DNA of 25,334 bases from a virus. The position numbers and the translations under genes were made by a program. This document shows positions 4,068 to 22,872 of the stretch, in pieces; position 1 is the stretch's first letter, and each line of letters starts with the position of its first letter. The stretch lies in IMG/VR virus record IMGVR_UViG_3300002144_000194, positions 1-25,334 of that record; one strand, given 5' to 3'. Below the pieces are notes generated by a model. That model made no database searches and was not told the DNA's origin. It was given only the letters and a program-made list of their open reading frames with translations.

Positions 4068-7000
4068 ATGACTTACGTTCCACTACACGTTCACACACAC
4101 TATTCATTGATGGATGGGGTTGCAACTCCAGAAGAGTATGCAAAACGTGCTTCTGATATTGGACTATCAGCAATTGCAATAACTGACCATGGCGTTCTGT
4201 CTGGTCACAGACCTATGTACAGGGCTGCAAAAGCAAATGGTATTAAACCAATTTTGGGTATTGAAGGATATATAACTGCAGATAGATTTGATAATAGAGA
4301 TAAATCTGAAAGAACAGATCCCTTGGATATGGTATATAATCATATCGTTCTTCTTGCAAAAAATGACAAGGGTTTGGAAAATTTAAATAAACTTAATGAA
4401 CTTGCTTGGACTGAAGGATATTATAGAAAGCCAAGAATTGACTTTGAAATACTATCAAAGTACAAAGAAGGTGTAATAGTTTTATCAGCTTGTATGAGTG
4501 GACTTCTTGCAAAAGCAATTGAATATAAAGAATATGCTGCTGCAAAAAAGCATATGACATGGTTTAAAGAAACTTTTGGTGATGATTTTTATGTAGAAGT
4601 TATGCCACACAACTCTGCAGAATTAAATAAAGAATTGCTTGAGATGGCTGACATTTATGGTGTAAAGCCAGTAGTAACTCCTGACTGCCACCACTCTGAT
4701 AAGAGTCAAAAGGTAATCCAAGAAATGATGCTACTTTTAAATACACACGCAAAGATTAATAAAGAAGCTACCTTTGACAAGGCATCAAAGATTGAAGACC
4801 CCATGAAGAGGCTTGACTATTTATATGGTGAAGATAGAATGATGTCTTTTAGAAGTTTTGATATTCATTTACTTTCGTATGAAGAAATTAAAACAGCAAT
4901 GCAACAGCAAGGTATCAGGCGTGAAGACATCTATGAAAATACTGTTGAGATTGCAAACAAGGTAGAAGAATATAATATTAAAAGTAATTTAGATCTTCTT
5001 CCAATAAAGGTTGAGGATCCAGATAATGAATTGCTGGCACTTACTTCTAGAGGTTTAGTTCTAAGAGGTCTTTCTGAAAATAAAGAATACTTAGATAGAT
5101 TAAATTTAGAACTTGATATTATTAAAAGCAAAAACTTTTCACCCTATTTTTTGGTTGTTCATAATATGCTTAATTGGGCAAAAGAACAAGGCATCATGGT
5201 TGGTCCAGGTCGTGGTTCAGCAGCAGGTTCTTTAGTTTGTTATGCATTAGGAATTACAGAAATTGATCCTATTGAATACGGTCTTTTGTTTTTCCGTTTT
5301 ATTAATCCAGATAGAGATGATTTCCCTGATATTGATTCTGATATTGCAGATGATAGAAGAGATGAAGTAAAAGCATATCTTGAACGTGAGTATAAAAATG
5401 TTGCATCCATTGCTACGTTCCTTGCATTCAAAGATAAGGGAGTTGTAAGAGATGTTGCCAGAGCATTTAACATTCCTCTTAATGATGTTAACAAAGTTTT
5501 AAAAGGTGTGGATAGCTGGGAAGACTTTACAAGATCTGCAAATGCACAATGGTTTAGAATGAAGTATCCTGAAATTGTTAAATATGGAGATCAACTTCGT
5601 GGAAGAATCCGTGGAACTGGTATTCATGCTGCAGGTGTAGTTACTGCAAAAGATTCAATCTTTAAGTATGCACCACTTGAAACACGAATTGCACCAGGAA
5701 GTAAGGAAAGAATTCCAGTAGTTGCAGTAGATATGGAAGAGGCTGCAGAAATTGGTCTAATCAAACTTGACGTACTTGGTTTAAAAACTCTTACCGTAAT
5801 TGATCAGACTATTAAAACAATTAAAGAACGTCACGGTACAGACATAAATCTTAAGCAGATACCCCTAAATGACAAGAAAGTCTTTGAGATGCTTTCTGAG
5901 GGGCGTACAAAGGGTGTTTTTCAGTGTGAAGCAACTCCTTACACAAACCTTTTGGTTAAAATGAGAGTAAGTAACTTTGATGAACTTGTTGCATCAAACG
6001 CTCTTGTTCGTCCAGGTGCTATGAATACAATTGGAAAGTCATACATTGCTCGTAAACACGGCAGGGAAATGGTTGAATATATTCATCCTTCTATGAATGA
6101 TTATCTAAAAGATACTTATGGCTGTGTGTTGTATCAAGAACAAGTTATGCAAGCGTGTGTAATTCTTGGTGGAATGACTATGGTTGAGGCTGATAAAGTT
6201 CGTAAGATTATTGGTAAGAAAAAAGATGCTAAAGAGTTTGATATTTTTAAAGATAAGTTTGTTAAGAATGCAGAAAAACATATTGGAATTAGAGCAAAAG
6301 ATTTGTGGCATGACTTTGAAGCACACGCAGGTTATTCTTTTAACAAGTCCCACGCTGTTGCATACTCAACTCTATCTTATTGGACTGCTTGGCTAAAGTA
6401 CCACTATCCTATTGAGTTTATGTTTTCATTGTTAAAGAGTGAAAAAGATAGTGACACTCGCACTGAATATTTAATTGAGTGTAAGCGTATGGGTCTGTCT
6501 TTAAAGCTCCCACATATCAACGAGTCTGACTCAGACTTTAAGATTGAAGGCAAGGGCATTAGATTTGGACTTGCTGCAATCAAATGGCTTTCTGAAGGAG
6601 TTGCAGGTAAAATTATTGCAGGAAGACCTTTTGAATCTAAAGAGCAATTTAAAAAATTTGCAATACAAAAGGGCAGTGGAATTAATTCAAGAGCAGTAGA
6701 AGCATTAGATCTTATTGGTGCTTTAACATTTGAAGACAATCCAAGAGATGAAGTAAAAGTTAGAGATAACCTTTATGAGTATCTTAATCTTCCAGAATTA
6801 AATACAAGTGTTCCACAACATTATTATGCATACATAGATCTTGTAGAAGATTTTGATGAACAAGGAGTTTTTGTTCTTCTTGGTATTGCAAAAAATATTA
6901 AGCGTGGTAAAGGCTGGTCAAGAGTCGAAATTATGGACTCTACTGGAGTAATTGGAATATTTGATGAAGAAGATACTAAGATTGAGCCAGGAAGAACTTA

Positions 7001-17832: not shown

Positions 17833-18049
17833 TTTACATAAAATGGAGTCAATTGTAAGTAACAACCCTTCCTTAACGTGGGATGGTTGGAATGTTGTGT
17901 TTCTTGAAAAAGATCAAGACGCTAGTCTAAAAAAGAATGCAGCCTTTATTGATTCTAGTTGGCACAAGAAAATTGTGTTTGAAAATACTGGTGGGGTCTG
18001 GGACATTCCAGACTCTATATTAAGGAAGGGCGATGTACAAGTTCGATGA
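17819..18049 (+). CDS. conserved small phage protein
   Basis: A 76-residue protein with the pattern SLTWDGWNVVFLEKD, then a mid segment AAFIDSSWHKKIVFE and an end GGVWDIPDSI. The Trp-rich beta-type sequence suggests a compact domain. I recall similar proteins near WhiB genes of actinobacteriophages but know no function. The ATG at 17819 lies inside the membrane protein gene and its end overlaps the WhiB start by 17 bases, so the three genes are translated together. Confidence 0.6.
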   Translation: MKISDLHKMESIVSNNPSLTWDGWNVVFLEKDQDASLKKNAAFIDSSWHKKIVFENTGGVWDIPDSILRKGDVQVR

Positions 18050-18314
18050 AAAAGCTTTATGCCTTAATATGGATACAAATCTTTTCTTTGATCAATATGA
18101 AGAAAATCCAGAAGTTTCCAAAAAGGTAGATCTTCTATGTATAAGATGTCCAGCACAAAGACAGTGCTTAGCCTATGGAGTTAGTAATGCTGAGTGGGGT
18201 GTCTGGGGTGGCGTTTATTTGGAGGGCGGAAAGATATCTAAAGAATTTAATAGCCATAAGGAAAAAACAGATTGGTTTGATGTCTGGGCTGGAATTACAA
18301 TGGAGACTAAATAA
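18033..18314 (+). CDS. whiB: WhiB-family iron-sulfur transcriptional regulator
   Basis: A 93-residue WhiB-like protein. Four cysteines bind a [4Fe-4S] cluster: C10, then C36-x2-C39-x5-C45 (LLCIRCPAQRQCLAYG). The family's GVWGG turn is at residues 56-60. WhiB proteins act at promoters with the actinobacterial primary sigma factor, so this one probably redirects host or phage transcription; the mycobacteriophage TM4 WhiB is known to repress host whiB2 and to cause superinfection exclusion. AAGGAAGGG stands just before the ATG. The usual basic C-terminal DNA-binding tail is replaced by a WFDVWAGITMETK end, so it may act only by binding sigma factor. It is the clearest host marker in the window. 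Confidence 0.9.
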   Translation: MYKFDEKALCLNMDTNLFFDQYEENPEVSKKVDLLCIRCPAQRQCLAYGVSNAEWGVWGGVYLEGGKISKEFNSHKEKTDWFDVWAGITMETK

Positions 18315-18577: not shown

Positions 18578-18988
18578 ATGGCTACAACAATTACGGTAAT
18601 AGGAAACCTGGTTAAAGATCCAGAAAAAAAGGATCTTGGCTCAGGAAAAGTGCTAACCAAGCTTCGCTTGGCAAGTACAGAAAGATTCCAAGATTCTGAT
18701 GGAACTTGGAAAGATGGAGACACGGCATTTTATGATGTTGTATGTTGGAGAACTCTGGCAGAAAATGTCTCATCAAATCTTTCAAAAGGAAATAAAGTAA
18801 TCGTTCATGGTAAATTAAAGTACCGTGAGTTTGACAGAAAAGACGGAACTAGAGGCAACGCCTTTGAAATTGATGCAACTGATGTTGGTGCATCCCTATC
18901 AATTAAGTCTGGAACATTTAATAAAACTAGCAATGTTTCAAACTCAACAGTTTCAGTTGGAGTAGAAGAGCCTGATCCCTGGGCTTAA
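18578..18988 (+). CDS. ssb: bacterial-type single-stranded DNA-binding protein
   Basis: A 136-residue SSB of the bacterial OB-fold family, normally a tetramer. TTITVIGNLVKDPE, FYDVVCWRTLAENV and NKVIVHGKLKYREF are the classic SSB strands. A Ser/Thr/Asn-rich linker leads to an acidic C-terminal tip ending EEPDPWA, which in this family binds partner proteins; the Trp-Ala end replaces the usual Pro-Phe. AAGGAG precedes the ATG by five bases. It has its own strong promoter and terminator. It is unrelated in sequence to the gp32-like protein at 3367, so the phage has two ssDNA-binding proteins; one may serve replication and the other recombination. Confidence 0.93.
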   Translation: MATTITVIGNLVKDPEKKDLGSGKVLTKLRLASTERFQDSDGTWKDGDTAFYDVVCWRTLAENVSSNLSKGNKVIVHGKLKYREFDRKDGTRGNAFEIDATDVGASLSIKSGTFNKTSNVSNSTVSVGVEEPDPWA

Positions 18989-19561: not shown

Positions 19562-19735
19562 ATGCCAGTATATTTATATGCGTGTGAAAAGTGTGAGGAC
19601 AATAAAGAATTGGTCAAGGATATGAATGATCCTGATCCAGAAAATTGTCCAGATTGCAAGAGCAACATTAAAAGAATTTTTAGTGTTGGAGGAATAGCCT
19701 TTAAAGGTAAAGGCTTTTATAGTACAGGAGGATAA
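19562..19735 (+). CDS. FmdB-type zinc-ribbon protein
   Basis: A 57-residue protein with the FmdB-family layout: MPVYLYACEKC start, a second Cys pair in ENCPDCK, then the characteristic IAFKGKGFYSTGG end. The first two cysteines are C8 and C11. FmdB-type proteins are putative regulatory zinc ribbons found widely in bacteria and phages; their molecular role is not established. It starts two bases after the HNH stop and ends with GGAGG that serves the next gene. Confidence 0.8.
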   Translation: MPVYLYACEKCEDNKELVKDMNDPDPENCPDCKSNIKRIFSVGGIAFKGKGFYSTGG

Positions 19736-19736
19736 A

Positions 19737-20006
19737 GTGTTTGGAGTTACAAAAGACCCAATGCGTATTGACGAACATCAATATCGTGCAGTAATAAGTT
19801 TAAACAAGGGTAGAACATTCTGGAAGGCTTCTGTTCAAAGAAGAATTTCTGTTAATGAATGGCAAAAAGTTGTTTGTGGACTAAAAAATGTTAAGTTTAC
19901 TTCAAGAGAAGATGCAGAATCTGCCGCAAGAACAAAAATTAAAGAACAAAAAATGCTTGATTATAATGATTTATCTAGCATAAGGTATGTAATTTACGAT
20001 GACTAA
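19737..20006 (+). CDS. hypothetical protein
   Basis: An 89-residue basic protein starting at GTG (19737), five bases after GGAGG (19727-19731). The sequence (YRAVISLNKGRTFWKASVQR then FTSREDAESAARTKIKEQ) looks like two beta strands and a helix, as in small double-stranded-RNA-binding or integrase-N-terminal (AP2-like) folds, where a 'W.A.......F.t.edA..A' pattern is common. That is a resemblance only. It overlaps the next small gene by 8 bases. Confidence 0.6.
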   Translation: MFGVTKDPMRIDEHQYRAVISLNKGRTFWKASVQRRISVNEWQKVVCGLKNVKFTSREDAESAARTKIKEQKMLDYNDLSSIRYVIYDD

Positions 20007-20151
20007 AGGATTCCAATATGATTTCTTTGCAGAAGAGTGGTCTTATGAGTGTGGTGCGTGTGGTACAGATCTTTATGCACCCACTAAAAAACATATGGAG
20101 GGTAACCTTTGGATTCATACTCACTCAAGTAATTGTCTTGGAGGCTGGTAA
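19999..20151 (+). CDS. small zinc-binding protein
   Basis: A 50-residue protein with a YECGACGTD zinc knuckle (C18, C21) and later HTH plus a Cys (H40, H42, C46) that could complete the site. It starts inside the preceding gene and its TAA shares a base with the next ATG. GGAGG at 20140-20144 near its end serves that next gene. It is one of at least five very small metal-binding proteins in this window. Function unknown. Confidence 0.6.
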   Translation: MTKGFQYDFFAEEWSYECGACGTDLYAPTKKHMEGNLWIHTHSSNCLGGW

Positions 20152-20429
20152 TGAATAAAGAAAAATTAGAAGAATTTTTATCTCAGTTAGACGAAGAGAT
20201 TATGGTTATGGATGGTTTTGAAGAAGCATTTATAGGTCTATCTAAAAGATGTGGTCAGCCAACTCTTGCAACATATTCATTTATAAAAATGATGCAAATT
20301 CTTGTTGATCGTGATGATATGAGTTTTGAAGAAGCTGATGAATATATCTTGTATAATTGTGAAGGTGCTTGGATGGGCGAGTTAACTCCAATAATCCTGC
20401 ACGAATATGATGATCCTTGGGTTGTATAA
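20151..20429 (+). CDS. widely conserved phage protein of unknown function
   Basis: A 92-residue acidic protein. I start it at the ATG at 20151, with GGAGG six bases before, not at the in-frame ATG at 20133 inside the previous gene. The sequence EEAFIGLSKRCGQPTLATYS, then DMSFEEADEYILYNCEGAWM and GELTPIIL is a pattern I recall from many unrelated tailed phages, always without a known role. The Cys in RCGQP and the aromatic EGAW segment are the most constant parts. Its stop overlaps the next start codon. Confidence 0.7.
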   Translation: MNKEKLEEFLSQLDEEIMVMDGFEEAFIGLSKRCGQPTLATYSFIKMMQILVDRDDMSFEEADEYILYNCEGAWMGELTPIILHEYDDPWVV

Positions 20430-20548
20430 TGTCTGATAAAAGAGAAATTTTTAATGAATGTTATTTGTGTGAAGCAATGTTTAAGGATATATTAGATTTA
20501 ATTAATCACCTTAAAAAAAATCACAAGGATGAGACTGGAAATTTCTAA
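20429..20548 (+). CDS. single C2H2 zinc-finger microprotein
   Basis: A 39-residue protein that is little more than one C2H2 zinc finger. Residues 11-32 fit the classical consensus exactly: C11-x2-C14-x3-F18-x5-L24-x2-H27-x4-H32. The hydrophobic core positions F18 and L24 are in place. Such fingers are common in eukaryotes and rare in bacteria (the Ros/MucR type is longer). It starts at an ATG overlapping the previous stop and ends overlapping the next ATG, in a chain of small genes. It probably binds nucleic acid or a protein; target unknown. Confidence 0.7.
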   Translation: MSDKREIFNECYLCEAMFKDILDLINHLKKNHKDETGNF

Positions 20549-20724
20549 TGTCATTAGTGTCAAAAATTAAAGAGATGTTAAAAGATTATCAAGAACAATA
20601 TGGACCTCTTGATGATAAGGATTATACAAAAATGTTTGTTCATTTTTATTTACAATACGAAGATGAATATTTAAAAGAAACAGTTAAAACTATTAGATCA
20701 GATGGTAAGGTTAAGAAGAAATGA
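20548..20724 (+). CDS. small hypothetical protein
   Basis: A 58-residue helical protein with a basic C-terminal tail (DGKVKKK) and a Tyr-rich middle (YTKMFVHFYLQYEDEYLKET). Its ATG shares a base with the previous TAA, and its TGA overlaps the next ATG in an ATGA arrangement, which supports it as a real gene. No family recognised. Confidence 0.55.
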   Translation: MSLVSKIKEMLKDYQEQYGPLDDKDYTKMFVHFYLQYEDEYLKETVKTIRSDGKVKKK

Positions 20725-20972
20725 ATTTTGAACTAAAACATGAAGTAGATAAAGGACCGATAGTTAGATGGATGGCAAATAGATTAATGGACATCTCATC
20801 CTGGCTTGCAAGAACGTCTAGCCCTTATGCAGATATGTATACAGCAGTATGGGATGATTATGAAGACGATGATGAAGAAGATCATTTGTTTACCCCACAT
20901 AATCAAATGGGATTATTTGATAACCTTGAACCGTTGCCACAGTTTCATCATTTAACGGATGAGTTAATATAA
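20721..20972 (+). CDS. hypothetical acidic protein
   Basis: An 83-residue protein with a helical N-terminal half containing paired Trp/Arg residues ([17 protein letters not shown]) and a strongly acidic centre ([12 protein letters not shown]). The C-terminus includes a [12 protein letters not shown] stretch, where QMGLFDN resembles a sliding-clamp-binding motif (Q..L/MF..), although this reading is speculative. It overlaps its neighbours at both ends. No known function. Confidence 0.55.
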
Positions 20973-21367
20973 TGAAAACTAGACATATTGCATTAGTTGC
21001 TCACGATAATAAAAAACAAGATTTGTTAGAGTGGTGCAAGATTAATCATACTACACTTAGTAAGCATCATCTGTATGCCACTGGTAACACAGGAATCTTA
21101 TTGCAGAATGAACTTAGTTTACCAATTACAAAATTTCTTAGTGGACCAATAGGCGGGGATCAGCAAATTGGTGCATCCATAGCAGAAGGAATTATAGATA
21201 TCTTAATATTCTTTTGGGATCCATTAGAGGCTCAACCACATGACCCAGACGTAAAAGCTTTGCTTCGATTAGCAACGCTGTGGAATGCAGGTATTGCAGT
21301 TAATCAATCTACTGCAGACATGATGATATCTTCCCCACTTTTTGAAAAAAGAAAGGGGCAGAAGTAA
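20972..21367 (+). CDS. mgsA: methylglyoxal synthase
   Basis: A 131-residue methylglyoxal synthase, which turns dihydroxyacetone phosphate into methylglyoxal and phosphate, a bypass of lower glycolysis. The match to E. coli MgsA is strong over the whole catalytic core: [12 protein letters not shown] (H11), [20 protein letters not shown] (D63), ILIFFWDPL (D83) and [13 protein letters not shown] (H90, D93). These correspond to E. coli H19, D71, D91, H98 and D101, so catalysis should be intact. The C-terminal 20 residues of the E. coli enzyme (152 aa) are missing. It is translationally linked to small unknown genes. A host metabolic gene of this kind is unusual in a phage. Confidence 0.93.
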
Positions 21368-21939: not shown

Positions 21940-22872
21940 ATGAGTAATTTAATAGACATAAAAGTAATTGGTTGCGGTGGCGGTGGAACAAACGTTGTAG
22001 ATAGCATGATCCTCCAAGGACTATCTGGAGTTGAATTTATTGCAGTTAATACTGATATTCAAGCACTAATGCCAAGTTTGGCAGATGTTAAAATTGATAT
22101 TGGAAGAGATAGAACTGGTGGTCTTGGTGCTGGAGCAGATCCAAGTATTGGAAGACTTTCAGCAGAAGATAGCATAGATGAAATTTCTGAAGTTGTTTCT
22201 GGTGCTGACGTTGTTTTTGTAACGGCTGGAATGGGTGGTGGAACTGGAACTGGTTCTGCACCTATCGTAGCAGGATGTGCTAAAAGCTCTGGAGCGTTGA
22301 CTGTGGGCGTAGTTACTACACCGTTTGCATTTGAGGGCAAGAAGCGTATGATAAATGCCTTAGAAGGAATTGCTAATTTTAGTAAAGAAGTTGATACACT
22401 AATAGTTGTTCCAAATGAAAACCTTCTTTTAATGTTAGACAAAAATATTTCTATGGAAGATGCTTTTAAAGAGGCTGACAATGTTTTATTAAAAGCAGTA
22501 GCAGGAATATCAGATTTAATTACAACCCCTGGTCAAATTAATATTGACTTTGCAGATATAAAAAGAGTTATGAAAGATGCTGGCTCTGCTTTTATGGGCA
22601 TTGGATATGCAAAAGGAAGAGATCGTGCAAAGGTTGCAGGTAGAAATGCTATAACAAGTCCAATACTTGATGTTGATTTAAATGGAGCAACTGGGGTATT
22701 AATTTCAATTGCTTCCTCTGGAGATATAAAAATGTCTGAAATAAATATGATAGCCTCATTAGTTTCAGGAAAAGCACACGAAGATGCTGATATCATATTT
22801 GGCACAGTTTTAGATCCAGATCTTGAGGATGGTATTTTAGTAACTGTTATAGCAACAGGCTTTTATAAATGA
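21940..22872 (+). CDS. ftsZ: FtsZ-family cell-division GTPase, core domain only
   Basis: A 310-residue bacterial-type FtsZ. GTP-binding motifs are intact: GCGGGGTNVVDSM near the N-terminus, VNTDIQAL, and the tubulin signature GMGGGTGTGSAP at 97-108. The T7 synergy loop INIDFADIKRVM keeps N201, D203 and D206, so polymers should hydrolyse GTP. The protein ends at VTVIATGFYK, exactly where the FtsZ core ends. It therefore lacks the flexible linker and the C-terminal peptide that binds FtsA, ZipA or SepF. It could form its own filaments, copolymerise with host FtsZ and disturb the division ring, or organise the infected cell. It is far closer to bacterial FtsZ than to phage PhuZ. Its stop overlaps the next ATG. 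Confidence 0.95.
   Translation: MSNLIDIKVIGCGGGGTNVVDSMILQGLSGVEFIAVNTDIQALMPSLADVKIDIGRDRTGGLGAGADPSIGRLSAEDSIDEISEVVSGADVVFVTAGMGGGTGTGSAPIVAGCAKSSGALTVGVVTTPFAFEGKKRMINALEGIANFSKEVDTLIVVPNENLLLMLDKNISMEDAFKEADNVLLKAVAGISDLITTPGQINIDFADIKRVMKDAGSAFMGIGYAKGRDRAKVAGRNAITSPILDVDLNGATGVLISIASSGDIKMSEINMIASLVSGKAHEDADIIFGTVLDPDLEDGILVTVIATGFYK

Follow-up and report, generated by a model that had tools for sequence, protein, structure and literature searches.

Classical C2H2 zinc fingers count as an essentially eukaryotic feature, with scattered cases described from archaea and bacteria, according to a study on archaeal viruses (PMC3541406). The nearest precedent for the protein described here is the AFV1p06 family of these viruses, which likewise consists of a small viral protein built on one classically spaced finger. 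AFV1p06 is described with Glu as fourth ligand, a third-strand extension and DNA-binding activity, and the study reports no bacterial homologue in its PSI-BLAST set (PMC3541406). The bacterial world also has C2H2 fingers in Ros/MucR. For Ros, the literature gives a 9-residue spacer, three His and a larger DNA-binding domain (PMC9779718).

The window (the whole stretch of DNA analysed, a virus record of 25,334 bases) encodes a finger protein that differs from each of these systems. Compared with AFV1p06, the phage family to which it belongs keeps His as the fourth ligand, is acidic and lacks the third-strand extension and the residues exposed there, its members ending a few residues past the last His or having unrelated tails. 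The spacer comprises 12 residues rather than the 9 of Ros/MucR, and the finger stands alone instead of forming part of a larger domain (29-44 aa in all). Ligand spacing, the Phe and Leu of the core and a predicted beta-beta-alpha fold are shared with eukaryotic C2H2 fingers (Pfam zf-C2H2 group; CTCF, ZFY and ZNF406 in the PDB), whereas the phage finger is stand-alone, lacks the aromatic residue two before the first Cys, presents an acidic reading face and, in the window protein, scores below threshold in Pfam. The single-finger structure of U-shaped/FOG (1jn7) appears in the PDB list of the family profile as a weak match (E 0.15), but that finger is part of a multi-finger eukaryotic cofactor, unlike the stand-alone phage finger. 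It binds a partner protein rather than DNA, a mode of action that the phage finger may share. Small single-finger proteins are known from archaeal viruses, and the phage family differs from them in size, acidity, absence of the extension and its range in phages. A search of the open-licence PubMed Central literature with narrow terms found no published account of such phage proteins.

The finger gene and its locus

The finger ORF lies on the forward strand at 20429..20548 (ATG at 20429, TAA at 20546-20548), and its 39 codons specify the product MSDKREIFNECYLCEAMFKDILDLINHLKKNHKDETGNF. The core comprises residues 11-32, with C11, C14, H27 and H32 as putative zinc ligands. Its spacing, C11-x2-C14-x3-F18-x5-L24-x2-H27-x4-H32, agrees with the classical ligand and core spacing C-x2-4-C-x3-F-x5-L-x2-H-x3-5-H. 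Both place and spacing are exactly as given in an earlier note on this DNA, which further claimed a match to the eukaryotic consensus at all seven positions. The spacing is right, but the pattern quoted names six residues, and six of seven positions agree, the aromatic residue two before the first Cys being absent. N9 occupies this place, with F8 one position off, and the column is mostly His across the wider family. This aromatic residue is variable among natural fingers, so its absence represents variation and no bar. Taken alone, the window protein scores below every curated Pfam C2H2 cut-off, reaching 18.4 bits against 27 for zf-C2H2_4, the best of them, and 15.6 against 25.2 for zf-C2H2.

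AlphaFold2, supplied with a 34-sequence alignment, predicts short strands at 9-10 and 17-18 and a helix at 21-31 in the window protein (mean pLDDT 81.6, pTM 0.52, core block pLDDT 90-92). This is the beta-beta-alpha fold of classical C2H2 fingers, and Foldseek and VIA-align match the model to solved fingers. In Foldseek, CTCF fingers rank first, at rmsd 0.4 over 24 columns and E 0.23, the best value in the PDB, while VIA-align gives Z values of at most 4.3, with AFV1p06 (2lvh) at Z 3.6 and rmsd 2.3 over 34 residues; low values are expected from both programs at 39 residues, and families missing there provide no evidence. The invariance of the four ligands suggests that the product folds around one zinc ion.

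Each end of the ORF overlaps a neighbour by one base, within TAATG at 20427 and at 20546. The upstream gene (20151..20429, forward strand) encodes a 92-aa protein of phrog_13182, function not assigned, with relatives in Bacillus phages, and its stop overlaps the finger ATG. The ATG of the downstream gene (20548..20724, forward strand; 58 aa, no family) overlaps the finger stop. Further upstream on the same strand are a WhiB-like gene, an actinophage marker (18033..18314), and, in the same early region, a putative single-stranded DNA-binding protein-like gene (18578..18988), an assignment made from sequence and co-occurrence. Several other forward-strand genes of this region were observed in passing. 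Two further tiny Cys/His proteins are encoded near the finger (19562-19735 and 19999-20151), one of them a Zn_ribbon_8 protein above cut-off, the other 50 aa long and containing CxxC and several His. In locus L118, a relative of this 50-aa protein comes immediately after the finger. A methylglyoxal-synthase-like protein (20972-21367; Pfam MGS, 50.5 bits) has relatives in 18 viral loci. The FtsZ-like protein at 21940-22872 (310 aa) has best matches that are 50-60% identical to FtsZ-type sequences in phage-collection records, and by eye keeps the GGGTGTG and NIDFAD stretches. It stops short of the C-terminal tail typical of bacterial FtsZ and could be a decoy or scaffold.

A 39-aa query is too short for locus finding, and loci were gathered through the upstream 92-aa neighbour, independently of the finger. 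A finger ORF lies directly downstream in 17 of the 40 loci found only in this way, and both Cys, both His, the F/Y and the L are retained in all 17. Relatives without the Cys/His pattern at this locus, which the earlier note had named as evidence against a genuine finger, were looked for, and every locus having the ORF was found to keep the pattern. Within the window-type set of 11 distinct sequences, pooled pairwise comparison of pairs that are not independent gives pS 0.50, pN 0.13 and dN/dS 0.17. The finger ORF is a conserved gene under purifying selection, which bears out the view that it encodes a true classical C2H2 finger standing alone and kept in frame. A chance ORF is ruled out by ligand conservation in relatives and by selection.

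The other 23 of the 40 loci contain no finger. Junctions were printed for six of them (L004, L005, L027, L029, L030 and L036), and here the 58-aa gene assumes the one-base overlap directly; in L004 the upstream gene is 97% identical to that of the window. The gene is cleanly missing in close relatives, contrary to the suggestion that overlaps at both ends hold it in place. Since it is absent from most neighbour-found relatives (carried by 17/40, 10/80, 4/80 and 6/80 loci in the neighbour-gene sets, which share records with the pattern hits), the finger gene behaves as an accessory cassette.

A one-finger family in viral records

The window finger had been treated as an isolated case, but it is one of a family spread over many phages. 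Three DNA-pattern scans of viral contigs, followed by inspection of the frames, gave 34 distinct proteins of 29-44 aa. Two further members (L139 and L328) were missed by the patterns and found only through neighbouring genes, so that the family is located in 46 IMG/VR records, two neighbour-found records and the window. For the second pattern, a frame with the family protein motif is present in 32 of 49 loci, the remaining matches falling in other ORFs. The third lay within a frame of 29-75 codons in 46/46 records, with no fused version among these pattern hits. Each of 29 records examined for finger number holds one, save for one chance-level extra match in G009. The core reads C-x2-C-[ED]-x2-[FY]-x-[DE]-[IVLM]-L-D-[LF]-x-[AN]-H-x4-H, with the most frequent residues given at open places, and the four ligands are retained in 34/34 distinct members. 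Ligands and helix are also kept in L139 (ELLDL, with H-x3-H) and L328 (EVIDL in place of EVLDL), for which no helix pattern was used. As a separate observation, the finger frame of L126 and L128 (75 codons) extends upstream through a possible membrane segment, MFFFEWLLFALWLASS..., and a second start with a good ribosome site ahead of the finger proper makes two products possible.

By profile, 25 of the 34 members match zf-C2H2_4 at E<=0.01, and the family profile matches PDB C2H2 chains at E 1.4e-5. Weak matches are made to phrog_6283 and phrog_30609 (7/34 members each at E<=0.01); phrog_6283 is matched by the window protein only at E 0.0011, and neither group has an assigned function. The idea that stand-alone C2H2 fingers are rare in bacterial viruses stands in part, but further small C2H2 proteins are listed in a viral structure library, both from phages and from tailed viruses of archaea, with Delftia phage PhiW-14 and Halorubrum tailed virus 4 as examples.

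Among the data searched here, the family is found only in viral records. A scan of bacterial and archaeal genomes (one genome for each of 84,980 species) gave 0 matches to the stricter exact pattern and 7 stretches, none of them family-like, to the looser exact pattern, divergent members being beyond the reach of exact patterns. In five of the seven, the strict protein motif falls within frames of 86-280 codons that do not resemble the family; in the other two (L294 and L296) no such frame contains it. Tblastn of five family queries against 50,697 phage records returned no convincing member, sensitivity being low for queries of 30-41 aa, and profile search of stretches from the related actinophages BillNye and Grayson gave no family match. 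The tblastn search did make a weak match in Actinomycetia phage DSL-LC01, where a frame of 151 codons encodes another kind of C2H2-like finger, CAYCHKRFVTITEHMCHVIEEH (L117, about 5853-6309, forward strand, across annotated hypothetical genes).

The hosts of these phages are probably Actinobacteria, because WhiB is present in 23 of 29 finger records (29 tested of the 48 known besides the window) and in 0/25 comparison records, an unmatched sample of chance pattern hits, many of them short (26 chance scan hits, L089 left out). A published account describes WhiB as an actinophage marker (PMC10202952). Four of the six WhiB-negative finger records are fragments of <9 kb; the other two are about 35 kb (G016 and G017), and the actinobacterial link is not universal. 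The DNA polymerase of the window has its closest counterparts in Streptomyces phages, among them BillNye (about 51% identity), and those of its WhiB are in Rhodococcus and Streptomyces phages.

Helix face, gene neighbours and candidate roles

The exposed helix face of the family is nearly constant. It reads [DE]-[IVLM]-L-D-L-[ILM]-[AN]-H, an acidic and hydrophobic stretch on the same face that reads DNA in eukaryotic fingers. Base-reading positions in DNA-binding fingers are numbered -1, 2, 3 and 6. In the phage family these are D/E, L, D and A/N in nearly all members, with L at +2, D at +3 and D/E at -1 in 34/34, a constancy partly required by the search pattern, which itself demanded some of the helix residues, acidic ones included. 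The neighbour-found members agree at the constant positions. Across the 34 members the core carries a mean net charge of -2.74, with values from -5 to 0, whereas seven CTCF fingers average +2.29. This acidic, greasy face and negative core speak against the reading of specific DNA sequences and favour an adaptor that binds protein.

The reading that we favour, tentatively and with a little less than even confidence, is that the zinc-folded finger serves as a compact protein-binding adaptor. It would be made early in infection and fold around one zinc ion, and the constant acidic and hydrophobic helix patch would contact a partner protein. This partner may be a conserved protein of the DNA or RNA machinery of the actinobacterial host, recruited or blocked by the finger. 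Two specific modes of protein binding were rejected. The helix L-D-L resembles the core of the bacterial clamp-binding peptide consensus QL[SD]LF, but it has no Gln at the first position, the stretch is helical and one Leu sits in the finger core, which speaks against beta-clamp binding. A ubiquitin-binding-type finger has a key Asp after the first His, and this residue is absent.

The protein could instead be a small DNA- or RNA-binding regulator like AFV1p06, a role that we regard as unlikely. The two share a fold and differ little in size, VIA-align includes AFV1p06 (2lvh) in its matches, and most of the solved structures nearest in sequence belong to C2H2 proteins that bind DNA; Z values are too low, however, to single out a relative. 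Gel-shift DNA binding is reported for AFV1p06, whose behaviour in vitro shows that a single finger can still bind DNA when flanking parts assist, and this counts against the adaptor reading; the same account credits a single finger with only three or four base contacts (PMC3541406). With an acidic and hydrophobic surface where DNA would be read, binding to nucleic acid is not the preferred reading.

The gene neighbours bear on a further role, that of an accessory to the phage's own replication or recombination. Here the finger, comparable to a zinc-finger domain not joined to its enzyme, would act in trans by binding phage enzymes such as the resolvase, polymerase or SSB, or the DNA on which these work. 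Neighbour families were searched on one representative per context type. In the window type, the context comprises WhiB, SSB-like and FtsZ-like genes. The finger adjoins endonuclease VII in L094 and a pyrimidine-dimer glycosylase in L104, and in L118 lies elsewhere within the same gene set. In six loci (L091, L119, L121, L125, L126 and L130) it is found between a 149-aa protein and a 51-aa or 158-aa-type gene; the operon also holds SSB-like and DNA-polymerase genes and, where the sequence extends far enough, a Toprim primase and an SNF2 helicase. In four others (L110, L120, L123 and L131) it lies between a DnaB-like ATPase and a RusA-like resolvase (phrog_244), in L090, L095 and L103 it precedes a RuvC-like resolvase (phrog_159), and in L101 it is near a PNKP-type phosphatase and a methyltransferase. 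As a side observation, the gene directly after the finger in L094 (3067-3627, reverse strand) is weakly proteasome-like (Pfam Proteasome, 18.2 bits, below cut-off) and presumably HslV-like.

In these loci, DNA-processing genes recur beside the finger, from the resolvases and endonuclease VII to the glycosylase, primase, helicase, polymerase and SSB-like protein. The enzymes vary among phages while the helix face is constant, and 46/46 pattern hits lack any fusion. A search for the RuvC-like gene showed that several phages of the 149-aa-protein operon type also own one and have the finger at another place, as in the record of L130, which also holds L318. Because of this, adjacency suggests an early DNA-metabolism region and not one enzyme, and adjacency to RuvC-like, RusA-like and endonuclease VII genes was rejected as a demonstration that the partner is a nuclease. 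In a co-occurrence comparison, SSB genes were present in 23/26 finger loci and 12/33 others, and FtsZ genes gave the same counts; the loci compared are of mixed lineage, some are truncated, and some finger loci were added by hand (L070, L075, L080, L081, L083, L094, L104 and L118). Antisense frames scored equally or better, which points to lineage and coverage, and neither gene was retained as a partner. A replication or recombination accessory is likewise unlikely, on a par with the nucleic-acid regulator. A gene that buffers zinc or is dispensable filler, with no specific partner in either case, would fit the accessory presence and clean absence in close relatives, but is very unlikely given purifying selection and the conservation of helix residues that are exposed and not required for zinc binding.

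For the protein-binding adaptor, the most likely partner is a factor common to the phages, because the patch is constant while neighbouring genes and DNA polymerases differ. The same contrast between a constant face and varying phage neighbours points to a target in the host, a step to which we give somewhat less than even confidence. A more specific version, that in this viral-only family of 29-44 aa proteins the face with which a eukaryotic-type C2H2 finger reads DNA has become a constant protein-binding patch directed at a single conserved component of the actinobacterial host, appears rather unlikely. If true, these would rank with the smallest host-takeover proteins known, and the bacterial world would have put the classical finger to use independently.

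A conserved, phage-borne lone finger with an invariant non-DNA face provides a minimal natural system for what one finger does alone, and a protein of 29-39 residues can be synthesised whole, making the question directly testable. The family also offers a way towards finding a vulnerability common to abundant aquatic Actinobacteria and exploited by their phages.
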